DNA of 33,156 nt from Modestobacter excelsi (GTDB lineage: Bacteria; Actinomycetota; Actinomycetes; Mycobacteriales; Geodermatophilaceae), in assembly GCF_005930495.1 (NCBI RefSeq), contig NZ_SJEX01000058.1, positions 1-33,156 of the forward strand, in the 5' to 3' direction. Each line of letters starts with the position of its first letter. Within the stretch, counting starts at the first letter, position 1. Positions 1 to 32,967 of the stretch are shown piece by piece. A program made the position numbers and the translations under genes. The notes beneath the pieces were generated by a model. That model made no database searches. It was given only the letters and a program-made list of their open reading frames with translations, and was not told where the DNA came from.

Positions 1-99
1 GCCCGCCCCGGCCGGGCCCTGCCCGTGCAGGCGGGCGTTCCCCCTGCTGGGCCGCATCGACGGCCGCGTGGAGGACGCCTTCACCGCCGCCGACGGACG
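1..99 (+). repeat. Direct repeat copy A (99 bp exact)
   Basis: Bases 1-99 are identical to 4446-4544. The match runs off the left edge, so the true repeat may be longer. Downstream the two ligase genes diverge (A/C at the first mismatch, base 100 versus 4545). Confidence 0.9.
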
Positions 100-361
100 C
101 TCCCTCCCCCTCCCCGCCACCGTGGTGGACGACCTGTCCGGTCTCCGCGAGGTCCAGGTCGCCCAGCTCGCCCCCGGCCGGTTCGAGTTCCGGCTCGTCC
201 CGACCTCCGGCTCAGACCTCACCGCGGTCCAGGCCCAGGCGCGCCGCAACGTGGACGAGCTCTTCGGTCCGGGTCAGACCGTCACCTTTCGCGTCCTGGA
301 CCACATCCCCCGCCCACCCAGCGGGAAGCTCAAGCCCGCCGTCCGGGTGCCCGATGACTGA
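1..361 (+). CDS. Adenylate-forming ligase (CapK/PaaK-like), C-terminal fragment cut by window edge
   Basis: Only the last ~119 codons are inside the window; the frame is open from base 2 with stop TGA at 359-361. The residues match the C-terminal end of the complete ligase at 3511-4806: GRIDGRVEDAF (acyl-adenylating core motif A8 region) and, near the end, DHIPRPPSGKLK, whose Lys after PSG corresponds to the A10 catalytic lysine. About three quarters of the last 97 residues are identical to that paralogue. CapK/PaaK-type enzymes activate a carboxylic acid as adenylate, usually for CoA transfer; in polysaccharide loci their substrate is generally unknown. The stop overlaps the next gene's ATG by 8 bases, so the two are translationally coupled. 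The first 99 bases are identical to 4446-4544. Identity as a ligase is firm by paralogy; substrate unknown. Confidence 0.85.
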   Translation, partial: PAPAGPCPCRRAFPLLGRIDGRVEDAFTAADGRSLPLPATVVDDLSGLREVQVAQLAPGRFEFRLVPTSGSDLTAVQAQARRNVDELFGPGQTVTFRVLDHIPRPPSGKLKPAVRVPDD

Positions 362-3369: not shown

Positions 3370-3500
3370 CCTCGGCGAACCGACCACGGTGCGACCTGGT
3401 GCTGACGCTCCGCTGTGGGAGTCGCGTGATGCCCAAGTCGGGCGCTGTTCCCATGGTCCAGGGCAACAGCTCGGGTGCACACTGCGCCAGTGGCGCCGCC

Positions 3501-3507
3501 AGGGAGG
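3501..3507 (+). promoter_or_regulatory. Ribosome binding site deciding the ligase start
   Basis: AGGGAGG lies 3 bases before GTG 3511. Spacing is on the short side, but the alternative in-frame GTG at 3475 has no purine-rich element before it, so 3511 is preferred. Confidence 0.5.
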
Positions 3508-3510
3508 TTC

Positions 3511-4806
3511 GTGAGCCTGCAGCACCGGGTGCGGCACGCCTTCCCGCTGCGCAGAGCGATGGTGGGCTCGCTGCAGCGGATGGAGCGGGCCTCGGCGGAG
3601 GAGATCGCCGCCTACCAGGAACGTCGCCTACGAGCGCTGGTGCGACTGGCGGCGCGGCGGTCGCCCTTCTACCGCGAGTGGTTCGACCAGGCCGGGGTCC
3701 ATCCCGCGTCGATCCGCACCCTGGCCGACCTGCCCCGGCTGCCCCTGCTCGACCGCGGCCTCCTGCTGCACGAACCCGACCGTTTCCTGGTCTACCCCCG
3801 CCGGCTGACCTGGCCGGCGCACTCCAGCGGAACCTCCGGCCAGGTGGTCACCGTGCACCGGACCGCCGGCTCCTCGGCGTTCGAGCTGGCGGCGTTGCAA
3901 CGGCAGTGGAGCTGGTTCGGGGTGCCGCACCGGCCGCGCAGCCTGCTGCTGCGCAGCAACGACCCCGACCCGCACCGGACCGGGACCCTGACCCGGCACG
4001 TGCCGGGCGCGCGGCAGCTGGTGGTCTCCAGCTACCGGCTCGACCGCGACCGGCTGCCCCGCCTGCTCGCGGAGATCCGCGCCTTCGACCCGCAGGTGGT
4101 CGAGGGCTGGCCCTCGGCCATCACCCTGCTGGCCGGCCTGCTGCGCGACGCCGGGCAGCAGCTGCCGGTCACCGCGGTCATCACCTCCTCGGAGGTGATG
4201 ACGACCGAGCAGACGAGCCTCATGCGCGAGGTGTTCGGCGGCCCGGTCATCGACCACTACGGGCAGACCGAGCGGGTGGCCATGGCCGGCAATTGCGAGG
4301 CCGGCGGCTACCACCAGTTCCCCGACTACGGGATCACCGAACTGCTCGCGGTCCCCGGCCACCCCGACCGCTGGGAGATCGTCGGCACCCCGCTGCACAA
4401 CTGGGGGTTCCCGTTGTTCCGCTACCGCACCGGCGACGAGGTCGGGCCCGCCCCGGCCGGGCCCTGCCCGTGCAGGCGGGCGTTCCCCCTGCTGGGCCGC
4501 ATCGACGGCCGCGTGGAGGACGCCTTCACCGCCGCCGACGGACGACCCTTGCCGCTCCCGCACACAGTGGTCAAGAACCTGGTCGGCCTCCGCGAGGTCC
4601 AGGTCGCCCAGCTCGCCCCCGGCTGCTTCGACTTCCGGCTTGTCCCGACCACCGCCACCGACCTCCCCGCAACCCAGGCTCAGGCCCGCACCAACGTCGA
4701 CAGGTACTTCGGCCCCGGCCAGACCGTCACCTTCACGATCATGGACCACATACCGCGCGAACCCAGCGGCAAGCTCAAAGCCGCTGTCCGGGTGACCACG
4801 ACCTGA
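3511..4806 (+). CDS. Adenylate-forming ligase, CapK/phenylacetate-CoA ligase-like
   Basis: 431 aa from GTG 3511 (443 aa if GTG 3475 is used). Motifs in order: HSSGTSGQVVTVHRT (~103-117, the phosphate-binding loop), ITSSEVMTTEQ (~225), YGQTERVAMAG (~250, adenine-binding motif A5), RTGDEVG (~305, A7), GRIDGRVEDAF (~329, A8) and PSGKLKAAV near the C-terminus (A10 lysine). This is the CapK/PaaK branch of the ANL superfamily: ATP-dependent activation of a carboxylate, typically to its CoA thioester. N-terminus MSLQHRVRHAFPLRRAMVGSL is like other CapK proteins. It follows the flippase after 141 bases and is convergent with the GT4 gene at 4829. No dedicated acyltransferase for its product is obvious except possibly the hexapeptide enzyme at 29974. 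Its 3' third repeats the ligase fragment at 1-361. Confidence 0.88.
   Translation: MSLQHRVRHAFPLRRAMVGSLQRMERASAEEIAAYQERRLRALVRLAARRSPFYREWFDQAGVHPASIRTLADLPRLPLLDRGLLLHEPDRFLVYPRRLTWPAHSSGTSGQVVTVHRTAGSSAFELAALQRQWSWFGVPHRPRSLLLRSNDPDPHRTGTLTRHVPGARQLVVSSYRLDRDRLPRLLAEIRAFDPQVVEGWPSAITLLAGLLRDAGQQLPVTAVITSSEVMTTEQTSLMREVFGGPVIDHYGQTERVAMAGNCEAGGYHQFPDYGITELLAVPGHPDRWEIVGTPLHNWGFPLFRYRTGDEVGPAPAGPCPCRRAFPLLGRIDGRVEDAFTAADGRPLPLPHTVVKNLVGLREVQVAQLAPGCFDFRLVPTTATDLPATQAQARTNVDRYFGPGQTVTFTIMDHIPREPSGKLKAAVRVTTT
4446..4544 (+). repeat. Direct repeat copy B (99 bp exact)
   Basis: Partner of 1-99, inside the complete ligase gene. The copies lie 4445 bp apart in the same orientation and bracket the pyruvyl transferase and flippase. 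Confidence 0.9.
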
Positions 4807-9368: not shown

Positions 9369-10972
9369 CCCGCGACCATGTCCCCGGCCGGCACGGCTCC
9401 CGTGGCGGGACCATCTGCGGAGCTACGAGGCTCGGCGAGGTGGGCCTGCTGCTGCTGGTGACCGATCACCGCTCCCGCCAGGACCATCACCATGATGTTC
9501 GGGAAGTCGAAGAAGCGCAGGTCCACGGTCAGGCCGGTGACCGTCTGAGCGACCAGGCAGAACAAGGCCGTCAGTCCCAGGGCGCGGCCGTACATCCCGT
9601 CTGCGGGAAGGCGGCGGGTCGCCCGCACCAGCCGCGTGTACACCAGCACGAAGATCGCCAGCCAGAGCGCCAGCCCGATGATGCCCAGCTCCACCAGGAT
9701 GCCCAGGCTGTCGAGATGCGAGGCGATGCCGAACCCCCGCTGCCAGGGGACAGCCGGGGACCACTGTTGGTGGTGGTAGGTGTTCACGGCGGTGAACCGA
9801 CCGATACCCCACCCGGAGATCGGCTCGCGGGGGAAGGCCCAGAGCGACGTGGCGATGTTGTTCAGCCGGTCCTGGATCTCGTCCGGTGACCCCACTCCGC
9901 CCGCGTCCCGATCGGCACTGGTGAACGTCGACCAGTTCGCGAGCACTGCCCCCACGATGGCCGCCCCGACGAGCACGAAGACGCTGCGGAAGCCCCTGGC
10001 CGCGCCGACGCCGCACAGGACGACCAACCCGAAGGCCAGCCAAGCCACTCGCGTGTGCGTCAGGTAGACGGCGTAGACGCTCGCCACGGCCACCACACCC
10101 GCGAGCGCTCGGAGCGCAGGTCGCTCACCGTCGTTGCAGGCGATGAGCACACCGACGAGGAACCCGACGACGAGCACCAGACCGTTGACCACCGGCTGGT
10201 TGAAGACCCCGACGGCCCGATCCGGCCAGCTGGGGTTCTCGCCGATGTACCGGGGCCAGACGACCTGGGGTGCGGCGAACTGGAGGACACTCACTGCCGC
10301 CGAGTACGCGGCCGCGGCCAGGACGGACCACAACAGAACTCGGATGGCTCGCTCGGTGACGAACAGCCGGCGCCCCACCAGGAACATCGTCAGCGGCATG
10401 GCGGTGCCGATGAGCACGAAACGCAGCACCGAGAACGCCTGCGGATCCCGCTCGTCCCCTGCCGGCAAGGCGTGCGGCGTCACCATCGAGAGCAGGTTCC
10501 ATGCGATGTACAACCCGATGGCACACGTGAGGAGATCGACGTGCACGTCGGTCAGCCGACGCTCCCACGGTCTGGACCACAGCCAGATGGACGCGATCAC
10601 CCCCGCGAAGGCAAGGATGAACGGGTCGACCGGCAGGGTCCCGGACGGGACGGCCAGGCGGAAGAAGGTGGTGACGAGGAGGTACGTGCAAGCCACGATC
10701 GGGCTCCGCAACCCCAGCGCGACAGCGAGCAGGCCGATGGCGGCCATGCAGAGCACCAGGCCCAGCCGGCCGGGAGCCTCCACGAGGACACCGAGCCACA
10801 TGAGGGTGATCCCCACGAGCACGGCTGCCCCGACCGCCTTCTCCCGCCAGGCTGCGCGGCCGCGGAGCAGCGGCGCGGGCCGGCTCAGCCCGGTCAAGGC
10901 ACCGTCGGCGGGACCGAGCTCATGCCCGTCCCTTCTCGGCGTCCCGTCCAAGGGCACCCGAAGGGGCCGCAT
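9365..10972 (-). CDS. O-antigen polymerase/ligase-like membrane protein (Wzy type)
   Basis: 535 aa, polytopic membrane protein with roughly a dozen hydrophobic segments. After a ~45-residue polar N-terminus come AVGAAVLVGITLMWLGVLVE, LVLCMAAIGLLAVALGL and further helices; a long loop in the second half contains RLNNIATSLWAFPREPISGW and GIGRFTAVNTYHHQ (~387), which fits the PF04932 (Wzy_C/WaaL) pattern of a short Gly-x-Gly element followed by a conserved His in an external loop. Role: polymerises flipped repeat units, or ligates the chain. It overlaps the upstream Wzz-like gene by 53 bases if ATG 10972 is used; the ATG at 10923 that would give the usual ATGA overlap is out of frame, so the start is uncertain. 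Immediately followed by GT4 with ATGA overlap. Confidence 0.85.
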   Translation of the reverse strand: MRPLRVPLDGTPRRDGHELGPADGALTGLSRPAPLLRGRAAWREKAVGAAVLVGITLMWLGVLVEAPGRLGLVLCMAAIGLLAVALGLRSPIVACTYLLVTTFFRLAVPSGTLPVDPFILAFAGVIASIWLWSRPWERRLTDVHVDLLTCAIGLYIAWNLLSMVTPHALPAGDERDPQAFSVLRFVLIGTAMPLTMFLVGRRLFVTERAIRVLLWSVLAAAAYSAAVSVLQFAAPQVVWPRYIGENPSWPDRAVGVFNQPVVNGLVLVVGFLVGVLIACNDGERPALRALAGVVAVASVYAVYLTHTRVAWLAFGLVVLCGVGAARGFRSVFVLVGAAIVGAVLANWSTFTSADRDAGGVGSPDEIQDRLNNIATSLWAFPREPISGWGIGRFTAVNTYHHQQWSPAVPWQRGFGIASHLDSLGILVELGIIGLALWLAIFVLVYTRLVRATRRLPADGMYGRALGLTALFCLVAQTVTGLTVDLRFFDFPNIMVMVLAGAVIGHQQQQAHLAEPRSSADGPATGAVPAGDMVAG

Positions 10973-12644
10973 CGGCCGCCGCCAGACCGACGCGCGCGGT
11001 CAGGTCGGGGCGGTGGTGGTGGTGGTGAGGCCCCTCGGGCGGCGGTTCGTCGGACGAGGGCCGACCGGCCGTCGAGGACGCCGGGCGGGTCCCCGACGCG
11101 TCCTGGTCAGCGTCCTCGCCCACCGCGGCCACCACGGCACCCATCAAGGTGGCGCCCATCTGCCGGAGGACGGCTACGGCCTCCCGAGCCGCTGCGACGC
11201 GCGTGACGTCGCTGTCGACGACGAGGATGGTCTGGTCAGCCGCCTGGCAGATGGCCTGGCCGATCGCCGACTGCACCACCGCGGGCGCCGCGACGACGAC
11301 GTACTGCCCGGCCTGCGCCTCCTGCTGGAGCAGGTTGCTGAGCTCGCTGACCGACACAGCCTGCGCATCCTCGGTTGAGCGCGGTGCCAGCTGGAGGAGC
11401 GACAACCCGGGGAGGAGACCGGATCGCATCAACGGCGTCGCGACCCGGCCGTCGGTCAGGATGCCGCCGCCCGCGTCGACGAGAACCGTCGCGTATCCCT
11501 GCTTGGCCCATTCACGTGCCAGCCTGCGCGCGATGAGCGGAGCCGCGGAGCCCTCCTCAGGCTGGGCGACGGCAAGCACCCGGGGCCCGGTCAGTCGGGC
11601 TCGGGCGATGTTGGCCAGCTGACCCAGCCGTTGCTCCTGCTCGGGCCAGCCCTCTCTGCTCCGCGTCCGCGGGAGCTCCACCAATGTCCGCAGCCCGACC
11701 TTGTCCGCGACGTCCTGCCCGGAGTGGAGACGTCGGGACAGGCTCGCCAGGACCAGCGCCGCGACCAGGCCGAGGAAGAGGCCACCCACGACGGCGGGCA
11801 GGAGGTTGCCGAACAGCGACGGAGGTTGGGCCGACACGCCGCCCTGCGCCTGGAGCTCCTGGAGGACGTTGACCTGATCGGTGCGGATCTCCTCGATCCG
11901 ACCCTGCAGATCGGTGACCACGGCCTGGTCCGCGGGCGTGTTCGACCCCAGAGCCGTGTCCAGCTGGTCCTGCAACGCGACCAGTTGCTCGGCCTGCTCC
12001 TGCGCGCGCACCCGGTTGATGTCGTCCATGAACGCCTTGGCCACCTGGATGGCATACGCCTGGGCGGTCTCCGGGTCAGACGTGGTGGCGCTGATGACGA
12101 GTATGGGGCTGGCTGCCGCCGACTGCGCGGAGACCTGGACGTCGCTGGGCACCTGAGCAGTTCGCAGCAGCTGCCTCTGGTAAGCACCGTTGTCGAAGTA
12201 GACGGCGTACCCCTGGACGAGGACGGCGTCCTGGTCCGGCGACCTGTCGTTGGAGGAGACGATCAGCGAGGTCCGACCCTCGTACGTGGTCGGGGTCCTG
12301 GACGTCACGGCGAAGGCTGCCATCACGGCGACTGCGGTCACTGCCAGCACGAGCAACCAGTAGCGACGCAGTCGCGCGAGCAGGACACCCACGGTCGTGC
12401 CGTCGACCGCCCTGCCTTCCGCGCGCAAGACGTTCGACTCTGCGTGCGCTCCTGACACTGCCGCTCCCCTCGCCGGTACCGCCTGAGCGGTGCCTCCGAC
12501 GGTTGGATCCCCGTCGACCCGTTCGCCAGCCGCGGCCACAGCCGGCGGCCGACCCACCATAGGTTCTCGGCGGCTGATTTCGGTCCCTGTTCGCGCGGCT
12601 ATTCCGGGCCCGGGTCCGGTGGCAGCGGTGTGGTCACCGCCCAT
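10920..12644 (-). CDS. Wzz-like polysaccharide co-polymerase with degenerate kinase-like domain
   Basis: 574 aa. Transmembrane helix 1 (~95-113, YWLLVLAVTAVAVMAAFAV), an extracytoplasmic coiled region rich in Gln/Glu (~190-265, e.g. AQEQAEQLVALQDQLDTALG) and helix 2 (~278-300) form the chain-length determinant (PF02706) layout. The cytoplasmic part resembles the BY-kinase/ParA fold (LAREWAKQGYATVLVDAGGG ~370-389, TILVVDSDVT ~470), but where a P-loop should be it reads AQPEEGSAAPLIA with no GKS/GKT, and there is no Tyr-rich tail; it instead ends in a polar tail with five consecutive His (~541-545). So it probably does not phosphorylate. Role: sets chain length with the Wzy protein encoded next. 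Start ATG 12644 lies 12 bases after the upstream stop; ATG 12560 is an alternative. Confidence 0.85.
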   Translation of the reverse strand: MGGDHTAATGPGPGIAARTGTEISRREPMVGRPPAVAAAGERVDGDPTVGGTAQAVPARGAAVSGAHAESNVLRAEGRAVDGTTVGVLLARLRRYWLLVLAVTAVAVMAAFAVTSRTPTTYEGRTSLIVSSNDRSPDQDAVLVQGYAVYFDNGAYQRQLLRTAQVPSDVQVSAQSAAASPILVISATTSDPETAQAYAIQVAKAFMDDINRVRAQEQAEQLVALQDQLDTALGSNTPADQAVVTDLQGRIEEIRTDQVNVLQELQAQGGVSAQPPSLFGNLLPAVVGGLFLGLVAALVLASLSRRLHSGQDVADKVGLRTLVELPRTRSREGWPEQEQRLGQLANIARARLTGPRVLAVAQPEEGSAAPLIARRLAREWAKQGYATVLVDAGGGILTDGRVATPLMRSGLLPGLSLLQLAPRSTEDAQAVSVSELSNLLQQEAQAGQYVVVAAPAVVQSAIGQAICQAADQTILVVDSDVTRVAAAREAVAVLRQMGATLMGAVVAAVGEDADQDASGTRPASSTAGRPSSDEPPPEGPHHHHHRPDLTARVGLAAADAAPSGALGRDAEKGRA

Positions 12645-12656
12645 CCGCGCAGGGCA

Positions 12657-13667
12657 TCAGCCGACGCGCGAGGGGAGCCCAGTGGGATGCGAGTCCCCCC
12701 AAGGCGCCGCGCCCCTGTAGTCCGACTGCTGGTTGACGTAGGCGTAGCAGTTCGAGTCGACGTACTCGGCCAGGCCGGCGGCGGTGTCGGTCACCGCGAA
12801 GTTGACCGCCTTGCCCCGGGTGACCGGGGACTGCGCGGCCCACTGCAACGAGCACCCGTAGGGCCCGAAGAAGTCGATCTGCCCGTCGTGGTACTCCACG
12901 AACCCGCCGTCTGCCAGGGCGTTGCCCGACTTGGCGGCATTGGGGTAGCCGCCGCCGTCGTTGGCGGACCAGGTCCCGTTGACGATGAAGATGAGCCCGT
13001 GCTCGTCGGCCACCGACCGCAGCGTCTGGGTCAGCGCGATCGCCCCTTCCCGGTAGGCCGCCTTGTCCGGGAAGGTGGCCCAGTCGATCCCGGCGAACCA
13101 CGAACGGGAGCCGAGGTCGTCGGCGAACCAGCCGGCCATGTGCGGGTTCTCCGCCACCATCGCCTCCAGCACGCACCGGAGCTTGCCCTGCAGCACCGAC
13201 CCGACCCGGAAGTCCGTGAGGTACCCCCCGGAGTTCGCCTGGTGGTCCCCCGGCCATCTCGCGGTCGCCGGACCGCATGGCGAGGCGTTGAGCAGCATGT
13301 CGTGGTAGCGGCCGTGCGAGTTGTCGATGGTCGCGTCGATGTAGAGGAGGACGCTGCCGCCGCCGGCCGAGACGGTCGTGAAGGCATGGTCCTGGTAGTT
13401 GTCCCGGCCGGCAACCACAAGGCCACCGGGATGCGCGTACTCCACCGCACCGGCCGAGGCCTCGTAGAAGATGCCACCTGCCTGCGGGGGGAGGTTCTGG
13501 ACGGTTGCCACTTCCGGCGAACCGGCGGGTCGCCGGCTCGCCGTGGTGGACGCAGTCGTCGCGGCGATGACCGCGACCGAGACCAGCACGGCGGCAGCCA
13601 CTGCGGCGATCGTCCCGACCAGTTGCCGCGCTGCAGTGCCGGTCCAGCGTTCGCTGTGGGCCGCCAT
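12657..13667 (-). CDS. Secreted glycoside-hydrolase-like protein, copy 1 of 3
   Basis: 336 aa. N-terminus has a signal/anchor (residues ~15-40, LVGTIAAVAAAVLVSVAVIA), then a ~281-residue domain shared with the proteins at 13866 and 16082. Conserved landmarks: AHPGGLVVAGRDNYQD, SVLLYIDATIDNSHGRYHDM, GWFADDLGSRSWFAGIDW, FIVNGTWSANDGGGYP, GGFVEYHDGQIDFFGPYGC. Alternating beta-strand-like stretches ending in acidic residues suggest a TIM-barrel hydrolase of the GH114/spherulin-4-like kind; this is inference, and I do not recognise a named family. Four Cys (CGPA, RCVL, GCSL, NCYA) are kept in all three copies, suggesting two disulfides outside the cell. GAGGA at 13674-13678 precedes ATG 13667. First gene of the operon leading into Wzz, 12 bases upstream of it; a role in trimming or releasing the polymer is plausible. 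Confidence 0.85.
   Translation of the reverse strand: MAAHSERWTGTAARQLVGTIAAVAAAVLVSVAVIAATTASTTASRRPAGSPEVATVQNLPPQAGGIFYEASAGAVEYAHPGGLVVAGRDNYQDHAFTTVSAGGGSVLLYIDATIDNSHGRYHDMLLNASPCGPATARWPGDHQANSGGYLTDFRVGSVLQGKLRCVLEAMVAENPHMAGWFADDLGSRSWFAGIDWATFPDKAAYREGAIALTQTLRSVADEHGLIFIVNGTWSANDGGGYPNAAKSGNALADGGFVEYHDGQIDFFGPYGCSLQWAAQSPVTRGKAVNFAVTDTAAGLAEYVDSNCYAYVNQQSDYRGAAPWGDSHPTGLPSRVG
12731..12873 (-). repeat. Inverted repeat pair 2, left arm (143 bp perfect)
   Basis: Reverse complement of 16837-16979 without mismatch, read base by base. It lies in the 3' part of copy 1 and codes for the FFGPYGC to NCYAYVN stretch. Separated from the 343-bp arm by ~113 bp in which the copies differ. Confidence 0.9.
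12987..13329 (-). repeat. Inverted repeat pair 1, left arm (343 bp perfect)
   Basis: Reverse complement of 16381-16723 without a mismatch, including synonymous positions. It covers the centre of the hydrolase-like domain in copy 1. Flanking sequence is clearly diverged, so the edges are sharp. Confidence 0.92.
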
Positions 13668-13765
13668 GGTCGTTCCTCAGTCTCCCGAGACGAGATGTGG
13701 CCAGCGTGACCGGGTGAGTGCGGTCAGCCGTCCACGCAGCCGCGGTGGGACGAGCGGCCGCCAGG

Positions 13766-13771
13766 AGCATA
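13766..13771 (-). promoter_or_regulatory. Possible -10 element for secreted copy 1
   Basis: TATGCT on the minus strand, ~98 bases before ATG 13667, in the 198-bp gap between copies 2 and 1. No convincing -35. It would give copy 1 and the Wzz-Wzy-GT operon their own promoter. Confidence 0.3.
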
Positions 13772-13865
13772 GCCAGCGAGAAGGCCGTCCTGACCGCACG
13801 ATCACGCTGCCATCGCTGCTCTCGCAGCCGGTGGCAGCGCGACCGTCGGTGACCTCAGGACGTCG

Positions 13866-15596
13866 TCAGCGGGCGACCCGTGACGGGAGTCCGGTGGGGT
13901 GGAACGAGCCCCATGGAGCCACACTGCTGTAGTTGGACTGCTGGTTGACGTAGGCATAGCAGCCGGAGGCGGCGTACTCGGTCCGGCCGGCGGCGGTGTT
14001 GGTCACCGCGTAGTTGATCGCCTCGCCGTCGGTGACCGGCGACTGCGCGGCCCACTGCGCGGAGCAGCCGTAGGGCCCGAAGAAGCTGATCTGACCGTCG
14101 TGGTGTTCCACGAAGCCGCCGTCGGCGAGCGCGTTGCCGTGCTGGGCGACGTTGGGATAGCCGCCGCCGTCGTTCGCCGACCAGGTCCCGTTGACCACGA
14201 AGACCAGCCCGTGTGCGTCGGCCACGCTGCGCAACGTCTGGGTGAGGGCGATGGCGCCCTGCCGGTAGGCCGCCTTGTCGCTGAAGCTGCTCCAGTCGAT
14301 GCCCGGGAACCACGACCGGGACCCGAGGTCGTCGGCGAACCAGCCGGCCATGTGCGGGTTCTCCGCCACCATCGCCTCCAGCACACACCGGAACTTGCCC
14401 TGCAGCACCGACCCGACCCGGAAGTCGGTGAGGTGTCCGTACGAGTTCGCCTGGTAGTTCCCCGGCCAAAGGGCAGTCGCCGGACCGCAGGCTGACGCAT
14501 TGAGCAGCATGTCGTGGTAGCGGCCGTGCGGGTTGTCGATGATTGCGTCGAGGTAGATCAGTACGCTCCCGCCGCCGGCCGAGACGGACTTGAACGCTTG
14601 GTCCTGGTAGTTGTCCCGGCCGGCGACCACGAGGCCACCGGGATGCGCGTACTCCACCGCGGTGGAGGAAGAGTCGTAGAACAGCCCGGCCGCCTGTGCC
14701 GGCAGGTTGGTGATCGTCCCCGAGGTGGCCGGCGCTACTGCCACCGTGGTGGGGCTCGCCGTGGTTGGGGTCGCCGTGCTGACCGTCGAGGGCGCCGGGG
14801 TGGCGGTGGCCGTGGTGGGCTTCGGAGTCGTCGGGGTCGCCGTCGTCGGGGTCGCCGTCGTCGGGGTCGCCGTCGTCGGGGTCGCCGTCGTCGGGGTCGC
14901 CGTCGTCGGGGCCGCCGTCGTCGGGGCCGCCGTCGTCGCGGTCGTCGGGGCCGCCGTCGTCGCGGTCGTCGGGGTCGTCGGGGTCGTCGTCGTCGCCGGG
15001 GCCCGGACGTCGTGCTGCGTCACCTGGACGGACGCAGAGGTGGCAGATCCCAGCACGTTGACGACGGTCTGCGCGGTGACGGCACCAGCGGGGACCGGGA
15101 GCGCCGCAGCGACGCGGGTCCAGCTCGTGGGAGTGACCGTTTGGGTCTGGCCGCCGGTCCACGAGAGGAACGCCCCAGTCCCGCTGAACCATGAGACCGT
15201 GATCTGCGCCTTGGCCCCGGTCCTGGCCTTGACGTCGGAGGCGAACGTCCAGGTCGCGCCGGCCCGGACGCTCACGTTCGGTTCGCGGATACGGGTGGTG
15301 GCCGCGGTCGAGGTCACCTGCGCCGCCCAGGACGCTGCGACATGGTCCGACACGGACACCCGCTTCAGGCCGGTGCCACCTTCCTGGACGGCGTAGCCCG
15401 TCGAGGAGGACGCGAGGACGGGGTTGGGCGACAGGTTCAGCTGGCTCGAGGTCGATCCGGCTGCCTGGGCGGAGGGGGTGGCGGCCATGGCGGCGACCGG
15501 CACCAGCACGGCAGCGGTCACTCCGGCGAGGGTCTGGACCAGTCGCCGGACCGCGGTGCTGGACGAGCGTTTCCTGAGGGCGGCATGTACTGCCAT
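13866..15596 (-). CDS. Secreted modular glycoside-hydrolase-like protein with CBM-like domain, copy 2 of 3
   Basis: 576 aa. Residues 1-46 are a clear signal peptide (Arg/Lys-rich start, LVQTLAGVTAAVLVPVAAMA, cleavage near AQA-AG). Residues ~47-198 form a beta-rich domain opening LNLSPNPVLASSSTGY, like CBM4/9-type jelly rolls (inference). Residues ~199-290 are a Thr/Pro/Ala linker encoded by 15-bp tandem repeats. Residues ~295-576 are the hydrolase-like domain shared with copies 1 and 3, with DDLGSRSWFPGIDW, VVNGTWSAND, FVEHHDGQ and the same four Cys. ATG 15596 is chosen for the GAGGA at 15604-15608 (7-base spacing) and because it starts the signal peptide; longer frames upstream look non-coding. 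Ends 198 bases before copy 1, same strand. Probably binds and acts on the exported polysaccharide. Confidence 0.87.
   Translation of the reverse strand: MAVHAALRKRSSSTAVRRLVQTLAGVTAAVLVPVAAMAATPSAQAAGSTSSQLNLSPNPVLASSSTGYAVQEGGTGLKRVSVSDHVAASWAAQVTSTAATTRIREPNVSVRAGATWTFASDVKARTGAKAQITVSWFSGTGAFLSWTGGQTQTVTPTSWTRVAAALPVPAGAVTAQTVVNVLGSATSASVQVTQHDVRAPATTTTPTTPTTATTAAPTTATTAAPTTAAPTTATPTTATPTTATPTTATPTTATPTTPKPTTATATPAPSTVSTATPTTASPTTVAVAPATSGTITNLPAQAAGLFYDSSSTAVEYAHPGGLVVAGRDNYQDQAFKSVSAGGGSVLIYLDAIIDNPHGRYHDMLLNASACGPATALWPGNYQANSYGHLTDFRVGSVLQGKFRCVLEAMVAENPHMAGWFADDLGSRSWFPGIDWSSFSDKAAYRQGAIALTQTLRSVADAHGLVFVVNGTWSANDGGGYPNVAQHGNALADGGFVEHHDGQISFFGPYGCSAQWAAQSPVTDGEAINYAVTNTAAGRTEYAASGCYAYVNQQSNYSSVAPWGSFHPTGLPSRVAR
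14827..14931 (-). repeat. 15-bp tandem repeat in linker of copy 2
   Basis: Five perfect 15-bp units (plus strand GTCGTCGGGGTCGCC) at 14827-14901, followed by two units with one substitution; degenerate versions continue to ~14998. Each unit codes for five residues of the Thr/Pro/Ala linker, so unit gain or loss keeps frame. Confidence 0.9.
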
Positions 15597-15769
15597 GGGG
15601 GGGTCCTCGGTGTTCGGTGGGCGCGGTGACGCCGAGCGGATCGCCGGGTGCGGCGGGGGCCATCCGGGCCGAGTCCACGGCCGGGTCTGCACGGTCCAGC
15701 GACCGGGTCCACCCGGCGTGGCGTCAGGCAGTGACCACGGGGGCATCGGTGCACCCCGTGAATCGGCCT

Positions 15770-15783
15770 GTGGGATCTCCCAC
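15770..15783. promoter_or_regulatory. 14-bp palindrome, possible operator
   Basis: GTGGGA-TC-TCCCAC, a perfect 6-bp inverted repeat with a 2-base centre, in the middle of the divergent region, ~18 bases downstream of the putative ECF -10 in the minus direction. Could be a regulator site; in GC-rich DNA chance is possible. Confidence 0.3.
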
Positions 15784-15800
15784 CCAGGGAACCACTCCCC

Positions 15801-15826
15801 GACCGACAGGGGGTGACGCCTGTTCC
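15801..15826 (-). promoter_or_regulatory. Possible ECF-sigma promoter for secreted copy 2
   Basis: On the minus strand GGAAC (15822-15826) is followed after 16 bases by CGGTC (15801-15805), resembling the GGAAC-N16/17-CGTC layout of ECF sigma factors. It would leave a leader of ~200 bases before ATG 15596. Confidence 0.25.
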
Positions 15827-16081
15827 GGATGTGACGCGCGAGGTGGGTGAGGTCCGCCTGCTCGGTGGCGGGCCCGCCGCGGCCACGCACGTGCCATCCG
15901 GCTCACGGGCGAGGGCCGGAGAGGTGAGCATCGGCGGCTTGCAACGAGGCGCTGCCCGGCTGCCCGGCACCGAGGCCATTGCCGCATCGGCCCGGACGAC
16001 CCACACTTGGTCGTGGACCTGGTCCGGATGCCACCGCCGCATCCGACGATCCACCCGCCGTCACCCCTGCCCGAGGTGCCG

Positions 16082-17056
16082 ATGCGCGCCCATGGCCGCG
16101 GTTGGCGGTGGCCTGGGAGCCGATCCGGTGGTGCCGCCCGGCGGCTCGTCCAGGCACTGGCGGTCGTGATCGCTGTGGCGCTGGTCCCCGCGTCCGAGGG
16201 GCCGAGCATCGTGAACCTGCCGGCACAGCCGGGCGGCATCTTCTACGAGTCCTCGGCCGGTGCGGCTGCATATGCGCATCCGGGGGCGCTCGTCGTCGCA
16301 GGGCGGGACAACTACCAGGACCAGGCGTTCCAGGATGTCTCAGCGGCCGGCGGCAGCGTGCTCATCTACCTGGACGCCGTCATCGACAACTCGCACGGCC
16401 GCTACCACGACATGCTGCTCAACGCCTCGCCATGCGGTCCGGCGACCGCGAGATGGCCGGGGGACCACCAGGCGAACTCCGGGGGGTACCTCACGGACTT
16501 CCGGGTCGGGTCGGTGCTGCAGGGCAAGCTCCGGTGCGTGCTGGAGGCGATGGTGGCGGAGAACCCGCACATGGCCGGCTGGTTCGCCGACGACCTCGGC
16601 TCCCGTTCGTGGTTCGCCGGGATCGACTGGGCCACCTTCCCGGACAAGGCGGCCTACCGGGAAGGGGCGATCGCGCTGACCCAGACGCTGCGGTCGGTGG
16701 CCGACGAGCACGGGCTCATCTTCGTCGTCAACGGGACCTGGTCGGCCGACGACGGCGGCGGCTATCCGGACGTGGCAGTGCACGGCAATGCCCTGGCCGA
16801 CGGCGGCTTCGTGGAGCACCACGACGGCGAGATCGGCTTCTTCGGGCCCTACGGGTGCTCGTTGCAGTGGGCCGCGCAGTCCCCGGTCACCCGGGGCAAG
16901 GCGGTCAACTTCGCGGTGACCGACACCGCCGCCGGCCTGGCCGAGTACGTCGACTCGAACTGCTACGCCTACGTCAACCGGCAGTCCGACTACGACGGCG
17001 TGGCCCCTTGGGGGACCTTCCACCCCACCGGACTCCCCTCGCGCGTGGCCCGCTGA
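16082..17056 (+). CDS. Secreted glycoside-hydrolase-like protein, copy 3 of 3
   Basis: 324 aa. Signal peptide ~1-38 (RRLVQALAVVIAVALVPASE), then the same ~283-residue domain as copies 1 and 2, starting SIVNLPAQPGGIFYE. Landmarks: SVLIYLDAVIDNSHGRYHDM (~100), FADDLGSRSWF (~168), VVNGTWSADDGGGYP (~214), FVEHHDGEIGFFGPYGC (~243), CYAYVN, ending HPTGLPSRVAR as in copy 2. All four shared Cys are present. ATG 16082 is preferred to ATG 16007: GAGG at 16073-16076 sits 5 bases upstream and the signal peptide begins there. At DNA level it is a mosaic: perfectly identical to copy 1 over 343 and 143 bp, but between these blocks it resembles copy 2 (for example EHHDG). It is transcribed away from copy 2 and converges on galE. 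Function as for the other copies: likely extracellular polysaccharide processing (inference). Confidence 0.87.
   Translation: MRAHGRGWRWPGSRSGGAARRLVQALAVVIAVALVPASEGPSIVNLPAQPGGIFYESSAGAAAYAHPGALVVAGRDNYQDQAFQDVSAAGGSVLIYLDAVIDNSHGRYHDMLLNASPCGPATARWPGDHQANSGGYLTDFRVGSVLQGKLRCVLEAMVAENPHMAGWFADDLGSRSWFAGIDWATFPDKAAYREGAIALTQTLRSVADEHGLIFVVNGTWSADDGGGYPDVAVHGNALADGGFVEHHDGEIGFFGPYGCSLQWAAQSPVTRGKAVNFAVTDTAAGLAEYVDSNCYAYVNRQSDYDGVAPWGTFHPTGLPSRVAR
16381..16723 (+). repeat. Inverted repeat pair 1, right arm (343 bp perfect)
   Basis: Partner of 12987-13329 in opposite orientation. The arms are ~3.05 kb apart and enclose copy 2 and the divergent region. Confidence 0.92.
16837..16979 (+). repeat. 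Inverted repeat pair 2, right arm (143 bp perfect)
   Basis: Partner of 12731-12873. Ends at a single G/A difference at 16980. Confidence 0.9.
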
Positions 17057-28653: not shown

Positions 28654-29850
28654 ATGACGCGACCCCTTCGCTGGCTGCTGATGGCCGGCCACGTCCCGGC
28701 GAACGCCCGGGGCGGCGGGATCGTCCGGTACACGGTCGAGCTGGCCCGGGCGCTGGCCCGGCGCGAGGACGTAGAACTGCACCTGCTCACGTCCCCCGGC
28801 GCGGCTGGACCGCTCGCCGAGCTGGCGGGGAGCCCGGACCGGATCGTCCCGCTGCCCGCCCTGCCAGGCGCGGCCGTGCCCGCCTTCGAGCGGTTCGCCC
28901 TCGGACGGCGGCTGGGCGACCGGTTCGACGTCGTCCAGGGCACCAAGCACCTGCTGCCGCGGGGCGTGGCCGCCCGGACGGCGCTCACCGTCCACGACCT
29001 GCTGCTGTTCGACCGACCCGGGGACTTCCCGCTGCCCAAGCGGACCCTGCTGGGCCTGCCCTACGCCGGCTCGCTGCGACAGGCGGACACCCTGCTCTGC
29101 GTCAGCGCCGCCACCCGGGAACGGCTCGTGCGCTGGGACGCGGCCCTCGCGTCGCGGGCGGCCGTGGCGCCGCTGGCCACCAGCCCGGGTCTGCTGGGCA
29201 GCGCGGCGGTCCCTGTGCCGTCGCTGGTGGGCCGGCCGTTCGCCCTGGTGGTCGGGGACGCGTCCCAGCGGAAGAACGTCGCGGTGGTCGTGTCCGCCTG
29301 GGCGCAGGTCGTCCGCCGCCGCCCGGACGCAGTGCTGGCGCTCGTCGGCCCGCCCGCGTGGGGTGCCGAGGCCTACGGCCCCGACCATGCCCGGCTGGTC
29401 GCCGCCGGCAACGTCGTCCAGCTCACCGGGGTCGACGACGGCACGCTGCGCTGGTGCTACGAGCACTGCGCCGTCGTGCTTGCGCCGAGCCTGGCCGAGG
29501 GCTTCGGGCTGCCCGCCGTCGAAGCGCTCGACCTGGGCGCGCCGCTGGTTACCTCGCTGGACCCGGCGCTGGTCGAGGTGAGCGGGCACGCCGCCGAGCA
29601 CCTGGCCGCGGACGACGTCGCCGGCTGGGCGGAGGCCGCGCTGCGCAACCTCGACCGACCAGCGACGAGCCGGGACGCCGTTGACCGGCGCCGCCGGTCC
29701 TGGGACGACGTGGGTGCAGAGACGGTCGCCGCGGTCACCGCCAGCCCCCGACGCTCCTCGGGCGAGGGGCGGCTATTGCACCGACTGCTGAACCGGGCGG
29801 GACGGCCGGGGACCTCCGCGTCCGGTCCGGTTCACCGTGAGACGGAGTAA
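28654..29850 (+). CDS. Glycosyltransferase family 4
   Basis: 398 aa GT-B enzyme. N-terminal NARGGGIVRYTVELARAL (~16-33), VVQGTKHLLPRGVAARTALT (~92), TVHDLLLFDRPGDFPLPKR (~111), CVSAATRERLVRW (~148). Donor side: FALVVGDASQRKNVAVVVSA (~196), VQLTGVDDGTLRWCYEHCAV (~254) and PSLAEGFGLPAVEALDLGAP (~278, E-x7-E type). The RKN and EGFG elements place it with mannosyl- or rhamnosyl-type GT4s, but the sugar is not certain. ATG 28654 is close to GGGAG (spacing very short); ATG 28681 is an alternative. A shortened, decayed copy of its 3' half lies at 30652-30918. Unlike that copy, this gene has all motifs intact. Confidence 0.9.
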   Translation: MTRPLRWLLMAGHVPANARGGGIVRYTVELARALARREDVELHLLTSPGAAGPLAELAGSPDRIVPLPALPGAAVPAFERFALGRRLGDRFDVVQGTKHLLPRGVAARTALTVHDLLLFDRPGDFPLPKRTLLGLPYAGSLRQADTLLCVSAATRERLVRWDAALASRAAVAPLATSPGLLGSAAVPVPSLVGRPFALVVGDASQRKNVAVVVSAWAQVVRRRPDAVLALVGPPAWGAEAYGPDHARLVAAGNVVQLTGVDDGTLRWCYEHCAVVLAPSLAEGFGLPAVEALDLGAPLVTSLDPALVEVSGHAAEHLAADDVAGWAEAALRNLDRPATSRDAVDRRRRSWDDVGAETVAAVTASPRRSSGEGRLLHRLLNRAGRPGTSASGPVHRETE

Positions 29851-30651: not shown

Positions 30652-30918
30652 CGGGATCATGGGAGTGCTTCACTTACCACCAGCCCGCAGCTGCTGAGCC
30701 GCCAACCGGTCCTGGTGCCGTCACTAATCGACCGCCCCCTTGGCCCTAGTCGTCGGGGATGCCTCCAGACCAAGAAGGTCGCGCCGCGCCACCTCAATCG
30801 ACCTGTCACGGCCCGGGAACAGAGTGCTCGACGCCGCCGGACCTCGGACGACGTGGGTGCGGAGACGGTCGCCGCGGTCACCGACAGCGCGACTTCCGGA
30901 ACGGTCGGGTCGAGCTGA
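30652..30918 (+). pseudogene. Decayed, internally deleted copy of the GT4 at 28654
   Basis: Two blocks match the upstream GT4. Block 1 (~30652-30783) matches ~29152-29284, including LVPSLIDRP for VPSLVGRP and ALVVGDAS in a shifted frame; a one-base insertion near 30742 and a one-base loss near 30761 disrupt it. Block 2 (~30790-30918) matches from ~29646, with RRRTSDDVGAETVAAVT nearly identical to RRRSWDDVGAETVAAVT. About 360 bases between them, including the EGFG donor-site motif, are missing, as is the whole 5' half. It therefore cannot encode a working transferase. It ends with TGA just before a strong hairpin. Confidence 0.85.
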
Positions 30919-31000: not shown

Positions 31001-32020
31001 GTGGTGCCCCTGCGTTGGCTCACCGCCCCGCCCTCTGCGGAGCGGGTCGCAACCGGGGTCCGGCGTCGGTGGAGGCAGCGGCCGGCGTGGCCACGGCGCT
31101 GGCGACCCCGCGGGCAGGACGTGGTGCTCCTCTACCACCGCATCACCGACGTCGACGAGGCTGACGACCCGGGCGGCATGGTCGTGCCACCCGAGCTCTT
31201 CCGAGAGCACATGACGGCCCTGGCCGACTGGTTCGACGTCGTGCCGGCCCGGGACGTCCTGGGGTCCCACGACCGCCCGACGGCGGCGGTCACGCTCGAC
31301 GACGGGTACCTCGACAACCTTGAGCAGGCAGCGCCGGTGCTCCGTGAGTTGGGCATCCCGGCGACGTTCTTCATCGTCGCCGACGCCATCGCCGCTGACC
31401 CGCCCGAGTACTGGTGGGACCGGCTCGAGCACCTCCTCCTGGAGCCGGGGTCGGGAGCGGAACGGATACGGGTCGCCGCCGGTCCGCGACACCTGGACCT
31501 GGACCTCGGGACACCGCTGTCGTCGCGCGCGGCGTACCGCGAGCTCTCCGCCGTCCTGCAGCGCCAGGGGCACGATGCCGCGATGCAGGTCCTGTCGACA
31601 CTGGAGGCCGCACGGCCCCGTCCGCCGTTGTGCGCACGGCACCGCCGGCTGTCAGCTGAGCAGGTGCGGGCCCTCGCGGAGCAAGACTTGTTCGAGGTCG
31701 GGTCGCACACGTGCACCCACTCCGCGCTCGCGGCGTTGTCCCGCCGAGCCGGCCGCGAGGAGCTGGCACGCAGCCGGCAGCGCCTCGCCGATCTGCTCGG
31801 GGAGGCCCCCGACCTGCTCGCGTACCCCTACGGCTCGGTGGGCGCAGTGGTCCGCCGCAACGCGCGGGACGCACGGTCGGCCGGGTACCGGGCAGCCTTC
31901 GCCAACGTGGCGGGCCCGGTCGAGGGGGCCTCGCCCTTCGCCGTACCCCGGATCACGGTCGGACGGTGGAGCGTGGCGCAGTTGCACGCGGCGGTCACCG
32001 CCTTCAGGGGGCCCGGATGA
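31001..32020 (+). CDS. Polysaccharide deacetylase (CE4/NodB-like)
   Basis: 339 aa from GTG 31001 (a second GTG follows at 31004). Core motifs: VVLLYHRITD (~41), AVTLDDGYLDNLEQAAPVLR (~94-113, motif 1, TLDDG with the catalytic base and metal Asp), GIPATFFIVADAI (~115), FEVGSHTCTHSALAALSRR (~231, motif 2, H-x3-H metal ligands) and LLAYPYGSVG (~271, motif 3). An insert of ~90 residues between motifs 1 and 2 is common in the glycan-locus branch of this family. It hydrolyses N- or O-acetyl groups on sugars. No signal peptide is seen, so it probably acts in the cytoplasm on precursors, unless anchored otherwise. Longer open frame upstream runs through the pseudogene and is not used. Overlaps the next gene by ATGA. 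Confidence 0.9.
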   Translation: MVPLRWLTAPPSAERVATGVRRRWRQRPAWPRRWRPRGQDVVLLYHRITDVDEADDPGGMVVPPELFREHMTALADWFDVVPARDVLGSHDRPTAAVTLDDGYLDNLEQAAPVLRELGIPATFFIVADAIAADPPEYWWDRLEHLLLEPGSGAERIRVAAGPRHLDLDLGTPLSSRAAYRELSAVLQRQGHDAAMQVLSTLEAARPRPPLCARHRRLSAEQVRALAEQDLFEVGSHTCTHSALAALSRRAGREELARSRQRLADLLGEAPDLLAYPYGSVGAVVRRNARDARSAGYRAAFANVAGPVEGASPFAVPRITVGRWSVAQLHAAVTAFRGPG

Positions 32021-32967
32021 CCAGCGAGTGGCCCTATCTCGCCCCATCCGGCGATCTGCGCTCACCGCCGCAGCCGATCACGGTCGGGGTCCTCCTCACC
32101 GCCCACAACGTCGCGCCACACCTGCCCGCGGCGCTGCACTCGGTCTTCACCCAGACGCGGCTGCCCGATCAGGTCGTGGTGTGCGACGACGCCTCGTCGG
32201 ACGACGTCAAGGGCGCGGTCCACAACTTCGGCGACCGCGTCCGTCTCGTTCGCCACCCCGTGCAGCGCGGTGAGGGAGCGGCCAAGAACACCGCCGTCGC
32301 GGCACTCGACACCGACCTCGTCGTCGTCCTGGACGGCGATGACGAGATGGCCCCGCAGCGCCTCGAGGCCCTGGCGTGGCTCGCTGAGCGCCGTCCCGAC
32401 CTGCACCTGCTGACGACGACGTGGGAGGACTTCGGGCCGGGCGTCGAGCCGACCGACTGGACCCTTGCCGATCACTTCCCCACCGTCGACCAGCGGGCGG
32501 AGATGCTGCGGTGGAACTTCGTGCCTGCCCCGGCCATCCGCCGCGTGCCGCTGCTGGAGGCAGGTGGGTTCGACGAGACGCTGCGCTACGGACCCGACTG
32601 GGAGTGCTACGTCCGGATGTTCCTCCGCGGAGCGTCCGCCGGCCTGGTGCCCCTCCCCCTCTACCGCTACCGCCGGTGGACCGGGCAGCAGACGGCCGAC
32701 CGGGAGCGCGTGCTGGCCGGCCGCGTCCGCGTGGGCGAGCTCATCGCGGCCAACCGGTCACTCACCCCGGCCGATCGCCGCGTCGCCGACCGCTCGCTGC
32801 AGGAGCTGCGGCACGACTACTGGGCCTGGCGGCTCGCCCGCGGCGCGGCCACCCGGTCGGAGAGCCTGGCCCTGCTGCGAGGTGGCCGCTGGTCGGCCCG
32901 GCGGACAGCGATGCTCACGCTCGCGACCATGGCCCCGCACGTCGCCCGCCGCCTGCGGGAGCGCTGA
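32017..32967 (+). CDS. Glycosyltransferase family 2
   Basis: 316 aa. GT-A motifs: TVGVLLTAHNVAPHLPAALH (~22-41), QVVVCDDASSDDVKGAV (~51), GEGAAKNTAVAALDTDLVVV (~86) and LDGDDEMAP (~105, metal-binding DxD). GGFDETLRYGPDWECYVRMF (~186) carries the E/D catalytic-base region typical for GT2 (the WE pair). Basic C-terminus ending MAPHVARRLRER may contact the membrane. ATG 32017 overlaps the deacetylase TGA by 4 bases, so the two are co-translated and may act on the same residue, for example deacetylating then extending an amino sugar (inference). Convergent with a partial gene at 33002. Confidence 0.9.
   Translation: MTSEWPYLAPSGDLRSPPQPITVGVLLTAHNVAPHLPAALHSVFTQTRLPDQVVVCDDASSDDVKGAVHNFGDRVRLVRHPVQRGEGAAKNTAVAALDTDLVVVLDGDDEMAPQRLEALAWLAERRPDLHLLTTTWEDFGPGVEPTDWTLADHFPTVDQRAEMLRWNFVPAPAIRRVPLLEAGGFDETLRYGPDWECYVRMFLRGASAGLVPLPLYRYRRWTGQQTADRERVLAGRVRVGELIAANRSLTPADRRVADRSLQELRHDYWAWRLARGAATRSESLALLRGGRWSARRTAMLTLATMAPHVARRLRER

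Follow-up and report, generated by a model that had tools for sequence, protein, structure and literature searches.

Patchwork identity between two inverted paralogs of Modestobacter excelsi, most likely left by recent gene conversion

How can two neighbouring genes be identical down to their silent positions over hundreds of base pairs (bp), and yet be clearly diverged in the sequence between and around these stretches? The question is raised by three paralogous genes, designated c1, c2 and c3, in a draft assembly of Modestobacter excelsi consisting of 178 contigs. The window, the whole stretch of 33,156 nucleotides that was analysed, is one entire contig (C133) of this assembly. Gene c2 is located between c1 and c3, and the orientation of c3 is inverted relative to those of c1 and c2 (Table 1). 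A first-pass annotation of the window had described perfect inverted repeats of 343 bp and 143 bp between c1 and c3, and had regarded them as the signature of recent gene conversion. Our results indicate that recent ectopic gene conversion between c1 and c3 is very probably the best explanation of this patchwork.

Identical and diverged stretches in c1 and c3

We confirmed the coordinates of both repeats by direct comparison. Block A (343 bp) and block B (143 bp) of c1 are the exact reverse complements of their counterparts in c3, and the two blocks share one gapless axis (p + q = 29710). Both are contained in an 865-bp inverted homology, 90% complementary, which corresponds to the coding homology of the two oppositely oriented paralogs, whose products display 86% amino acid (aa) identity across the aligned part. 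Outside the blocks, the identity between c1 and c3 was 74.6% in the 5' stretch (13330-13514), 80.5% in the 113-bp middle patch and 77.9% in the tail (12663-12730), in agreement with the divergence that had been described for these regions. Among the columns with letters in all three copies, mismatches between c1 and c3 were found at 0 of 486 sites in the blocks and at 82 of 363 other aligned sites (Fisher p = 1.5e-33). By the rule of three, block divergence is below about 0.6%, compared with 22.6% outside.

The identity was also said to include silent positions, and this proved to be the case. Third codon positions of c1 and c3 were identical at 115/115 sites in block A and 48/48 sites in block B (163/163 in total), whereas c1 and c2 agreed at 89/115 and 42/48 of the same sites (131/163). 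In ten control copy pairs, 14-19% of the block sites differed, corresponding to 0.63-1.00 of the rate outside the blocks in the same pair (0.63 for c1-c2), and the blocks are thus only modestly conserved. A run of 343 bp was reached in none of 2000 codon-order shuffles, while the 62-bp runs of c1-c2 and c2-c3 were reached in 3 and 6 of 2000, respectively. Taking into account the identical third positions, the sharp borders of the blocks, the contrast with the control pairs and the recurrence in relatives described below, recent gene conversion is well supported.

On the other hand, the suggestion that c3 is closer to c2 in the diverged middle patch is weak. Although c3 matches c2 at 97/113 sites and c1 at 91/113, the difference is not significant. 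The sites supporting c2-c3, c1-c3 and c1-c2 number 12, 6 and 8, respectively (p = 0.24 and 0.50), and the reading that c2 donated the middle patch of c3 was rejected on this basis (12 versus 6 sites, p = 0.24).

We propose that three paralogous genes for predicted secreted exopolysaccharide-cleaving TIM-barrel enzymes are situated in an exopolysaccharide locus, and that c1 and c3 would have recombined recently where their coding sequences are homologous, most likely with no persisting crossover. The machinery would be RecA-type homologous recombination. The sequence of one copy would have overwritten that of the other across 343 and 143 bp, in one patchy event or in two, while the leader, the 113-bp patch and the C-terminal tail would have been kept different. 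In terms of direction, the distances of c1 and c3 to G. pulveris fail to distinguish between the two possible directions of conversion.

Copies in related genomes

Searches that included the own genome detected the gene in 6 of 97, 6 of 112 and 3 of 394 genomes, the 112 being those of the bacterial family to which M. excelsi belongs. Among the six carriers in this family, five harbour two or three copies, and the sixth (Trujillonella) harbours one fragment at a contig edge. In the search of 394 genomes, in which up to five candidates were scored per genome, the two matches outside the own genome (E 3.4e-4 and 5.8e-4; 32-33% over residues 12-104) were rejected as relatives.

As the first-pass annotation had recommended, conversion tracts were sought by comparing the copies in relatives. 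With gap columns excluded, identical central runs between diverged ends were found in head-to-tail copies of G. aquaeductus (418 bp), G. pulveris (224 bp) and URHA0031 (79 bp). Runs that none of 2000 shuffles reached were present in 4 of 11 within-genome pairs, representing 4 of the 5 multi-copy genomes, but in none of 94 between-genome pairs; the partial Trujillonella copy was excluded from this test. With 500 shuffles, one between-genome pair (Blas_b-c3, 51 bp) was left unreached, whereas with 2000 shuffles all between-genome pairs were reached. In G. aquaeductus and G. pulveris, the first long run begins at almost the same alignment column (135 and 136, respectively), and the block borders in the window differ from those of the relatives. 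Two metagenome proteins, P0001 and P0002, differ at the N-terminal end but are almost the same in the C-terminal half, and the order in which their stretches match c1, c2 and c3 is unlike that of any copy in the window. In addition to its clustered copies, the G. aquaeductus genome harbours a copy bearing a carbohydrate-binding module (CBM) on a separate contig, outside the exopolysaccharide cluster (L026 2849-4420). The longest identical run between this copy and the clustered copies is only 46 bp.

Several points weigh against conversion. In the flank-plus-middle tree, c1 groups with G. pulveris with values of only 80/86, and the approximately unbiased (AU) test keeps c1 + c3 (p = 0.298); the Trujillonella and Kitasatospora copies were excluded from the trees and AU tests. 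In the 5' stretch, c1 does not stand out as the nearest to copy b of G. pulveris, whose identity is 82.7% with both c1 and c2 and 80.9% with c3. In the flank columns, too, the paired copies of G. pulveris cluster with each other, as do those of G. aquaeductus (97/95 and 100/100), and these two pairs could alternatively stem from a duplication that took place fairly recently, with ends that change faster. The diverged patch that splits the two tracts requires patchy repair or two events, and all of the compared assemblies are drafts. Concerning the AU tests, a clade of the three own copies was rejected neither in the blocks (p = 0.342) nor in the flanks (p = 0.213), and for c1 + G. pulveris copy b by itself p was 0.048. 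The trees add little, and the case for conversion thus rests on the patchwork itself.

Gene conversion is an ordinary mechanism, which is well displayed here and probably recurrent. Concerted evolution is described for bacterial paralogs such as tuf, rrn and nif (PMC8262849), and 26 prokaryote genes are reported as recurrently concerted in PMC6053082. As in these systems, tract identity amid divergence is found here in several species, and the tuf genes are inverted like c1 and c3. Unlike these systems, c1 and c3 are closely linked, their products are secreted and glycoside hydrolase (GH)-like, and the tracts cover only part of the gene. The locus is a clear example from nature of linked bacterial genes, encoding secreted proteins, that evolve in concert over only part of their length, and direct as well as inverted copies are available for comparison.

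Inversion, assembly and selection as alternatives

The first-pass annotation had also pointed out that recombination between the inverted arms, about 3 kb apart, could flip the intervening segment. The distance measured between the inner ends of the block A arms is 3051 bp (13330-16380). A flip switch operating through these arms would invert 3.05 kb, move c2 and give c1 and c3 each other's leaders and promoters; we regard this explanation as decidedly unlikely. The 343-bp arms are inverted and keep the coding frames in phase, and a flip should therefore yield two chimeric genes, both intact. General recombination is able to invert the segment between homologous genes of opposite orientation: in Salmonella, up to a quarter of the recombination events between inverted tuf genes result in inversion, and in a kan-cassette system 5 of 59 selected clones (8%) were inverted (PMC8262849). 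P0001 carries a c3-like N-terminal end joined to a middle patch matching c1. However, the stretch before this patch also matches c2, and P0001 is thus no simple flip product.

Phase-variable invertible segments resemble the present arrangement in that inverted repeats enclose a segment with promoters and coding sequence. Here, in contrast, the repeats are coding-sequence homology, and no recombinase was found among the 23 window genes scanned with Pfam, a set that stops short of the last gene (near 32000-32967), although general recombination would need no site-specific recombinase. The copies in other clusters are arranged head to tail, and as long identical runs occur between direct copies in three of the four multi-copy relatives, inversion is not needed.

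In the relatives, the place of c1 is held by a copy adjoining the Wzz-like gene. Against this Wzz-side copy, the c1 leader scored higher than the c3 leader in G. pulveris (126 and 61), URHA0031 (84 and 44) and G. aquaeductus (84 and 36), although on an unequal footing, as the compared leaders were 50 and 40 residues long; Blastococcus was uninformative (39 and 33). The assembled order thus looks parental, and the leader sequences suggest that it represents the ancestral orientation. The c1 leader scored 87 against c2 and 74 against G. pulveris copy a. A specific kinship of the c3 leader with c2 was rejected, as its score of 57 against c2 is near those against c1 (55) and G. pulveris copy b (61).

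It is highly improbable that the identity is an assembly artefact, in which the sequence of one copy was pasted into the other or the blocks were collapsed by the assembler. The fragmentation of the draft favours such an error, as do the contig edges in a second paralog pair, encoding phenylacetate-CoA-ligase-like proteins, which end in exact repeats. The last 127 bp of contig C13 are identical to 3775-3901, and the first 99 bp of C133 to 4446-4544; such edges are expected when a k-mer assembler stops at a repeat. Against this, the contig crosses both c1 and c3 with intact frames, the assemblies of other genomes display similar patterns, and metagenome protein clusters share halves while differing in their N-terminal ends. 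Moreover, the assembly broke at the ligase repeat but continued through the c1/c3 arms, which suggests that the 343-bp arms were bridged.

The ligase-like pair itself (window 1-361 and 3475-4806) consists of one intact copy and one split across two contigs, with the other part at the C13 contig edge (L054); its missing middle (~770 bp) may be a further long identical tract between diverged ends. The Trujillonella endophytica copy of the c1-c3 family is cut at a contig edge (L009 1-525), and another family copy, P0121 of Geodermatophilus sp. SYSU D00867, lies alone on a 567-bp contig. Such truncated or isolated copies would be expected if assemblies are interrupted at near-identical copies. Loci of this kind may be fragmented or blurred when assembled from short reads, and the copy number and mosaics of the family may consequently be under-reported.

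Finally, identity maintained by purifying selection or left by a recent whole-gene duplication, with no conversion, is scarcely credible: most of the invariant columns of the protein family do fall in the central domain, but selection alone is contradicted by the third positions and the control pairs, and the divergence between c1 and c3 amounts to 20-25% in the 5' stretch, the middle patch and the tail.

The protein family and its locus

A total of 317 proteins matched c3 at E ≤ 0.001 among 7997 candidates scored. The core of the three copies had no match in Pfam or NCBIfam, and when 92 family members were scanned with Pfam, no model matched more than six. A search of the Protein Data Bank with the family profile gave chance-level matches only (best E 0.073), comparison of this profile with the GH114 alignment using hhalign was not significant (probability 1.8%, E 0.027), and a PF03537 search of the own genome found nothing. 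In terms of structure, the AlphaFold2 model of the 349-residue frame of c3 (mean predicted local distance difference test score 87.8) adopts a predicted (beta/alpha)8 fold like those of the solved GH114, GH166 and GH191 members. The copies are predicted TIM barrels, nearest to the GH191, GH114 and GH166 galactosaminidases and the GH168 fucanases. The identity to the endo-galactosaminidases of GH114, GH166 (PelA hydrolase domain) and GH191 and the endo-fucanases of GH168 is only 8-16%. Three acidic residues, D195, D196 and E270, show conservation of 90% or more, and the model of c3 places them where strands 4 and 6 end; for TmGH191, PMC12054363 gives Asp156/Glu225 as the catalytic residues. The members of this secreted family are probably enzymes that cut sugar polymers. 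The unnamed family, to which the locus directs attention, is likely to cleave exopolysaccharides and may be a candidate new glycoside hydrolase family. Among the papers searched, none contained all of the terms Geodermatophilus, exopolysaccharide and glycoside hydrolase.

The window reads as an exopolysaccharide locus. It harbours genes for a pyruvyl transferase, a flippase, several glycosyltransferases, an O-antigen-ligase/Wzy-type protein, an epimerase and a UDP-sugar dehydrogenase, as well as LytR-CpsA-Psr, sugar transferase and polysaccharide deacetylase genes. The matches of the Wzz-like gene next to c1 are both below the cut-off (Wzz, E = 7e-4; eps_fam, E = 1e-7). G. pulveris, Blastococcus URHD0036, URHA0031 and Trujillonella share the gene order copies, Wzz-like, Wzy-type, glycosyltransferases, and G. 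aquaeductus and Trebonia share it in part. The locus genes were not seen in the examined DNA surrounding a Kitasatospora copy (53%).

The c2 product is composed of a leader, a CBM_4_9-like domain, a Pro/Thr-rich linker and a GH-like domain. A Pfam scan of the complete c2 frame gave no match, and CBM_4_9 against the N-terminal part alone (E = 0.012) did not pass the cut-off, whereas the relative P0128 did (E = 1.1e-5). The CBM-type copies URHA_a and Blas_a are built like c2. The linker is encoded by near-perfect repeats, and its length is possibly variable. Upstream, c2 and c3 share a segment of ~65 bp (80%) to which the region upstream of c1 has no match, and, judging from this sequence, the upstream end of c3 may go back to a c2-type gene that was duplicated in inverted orientation long ago.

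Table 1 Features of the c1-c3 region and their positions in the window
Feature	Positions	Strand	Description
Wzz/tyrosine-autokinase-like gene	10920..12644	-	Conserved neighbour at the c1 side; assigned from weak matches and synteny
c1	12657..13667	-	Open reading frame (ORF); 336 aa secreted GH-like protein, adjoins Wzz-like gene
Block B arm in c1	12731..12873	-	143 bp, identical to c3
Diverged middle patch in c1	12874..12986	-	22/113 sites differ from c3
Block A arm in c1	12987..13329	-	343 bp, identical to c3
c2	13866..15596	-	ORF; 576 aa from likely start 15596, open frame from 15890
Pro/Thr-rich linker repeat of c2	14720..15005	-	Mainly 15-bp units
c2 upstream segment	15619..15682	-	Homologous to c3 upstream segment
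c3 upstream segment	16009..16072	+	Homologous to c2 upstream segment
c3	16082..17056	+	ORF; 324 aa from likely start 16082, open frame from 16007
Block A arm in c3	16381..16723	+	Residues ~126-239 of the 349-residue frame; D195/D196 inside
Diverged middle patch in c3	16724..16836	+	Residues ~240-277; E270 inside
Block B arm in c3	16837..16979	+	Residues ~278-324

We also consider the possibility, unlikely as it is, that recombination in the cluster acts as a system for diversifying exopolysaccharide enzymes, in which conversion, and here also inversion, would continually reshuffle one catalytic core. Such a system would shuffle the core among different leaders, tails and carbohydrate-binding modules, and a population would simultaneously hold several chimeric enzymes and promoter-enzyme pairings.

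An Rfam scan of the window gave 0 matches. Towards the other end of the window, a 113-bp direct repeat (29633-29745 and 30776-30888, 80%) was observed, in which the end of a glycosyltransferase gene recurs ~1.1 kb downstream, possibly as a gene remnant.

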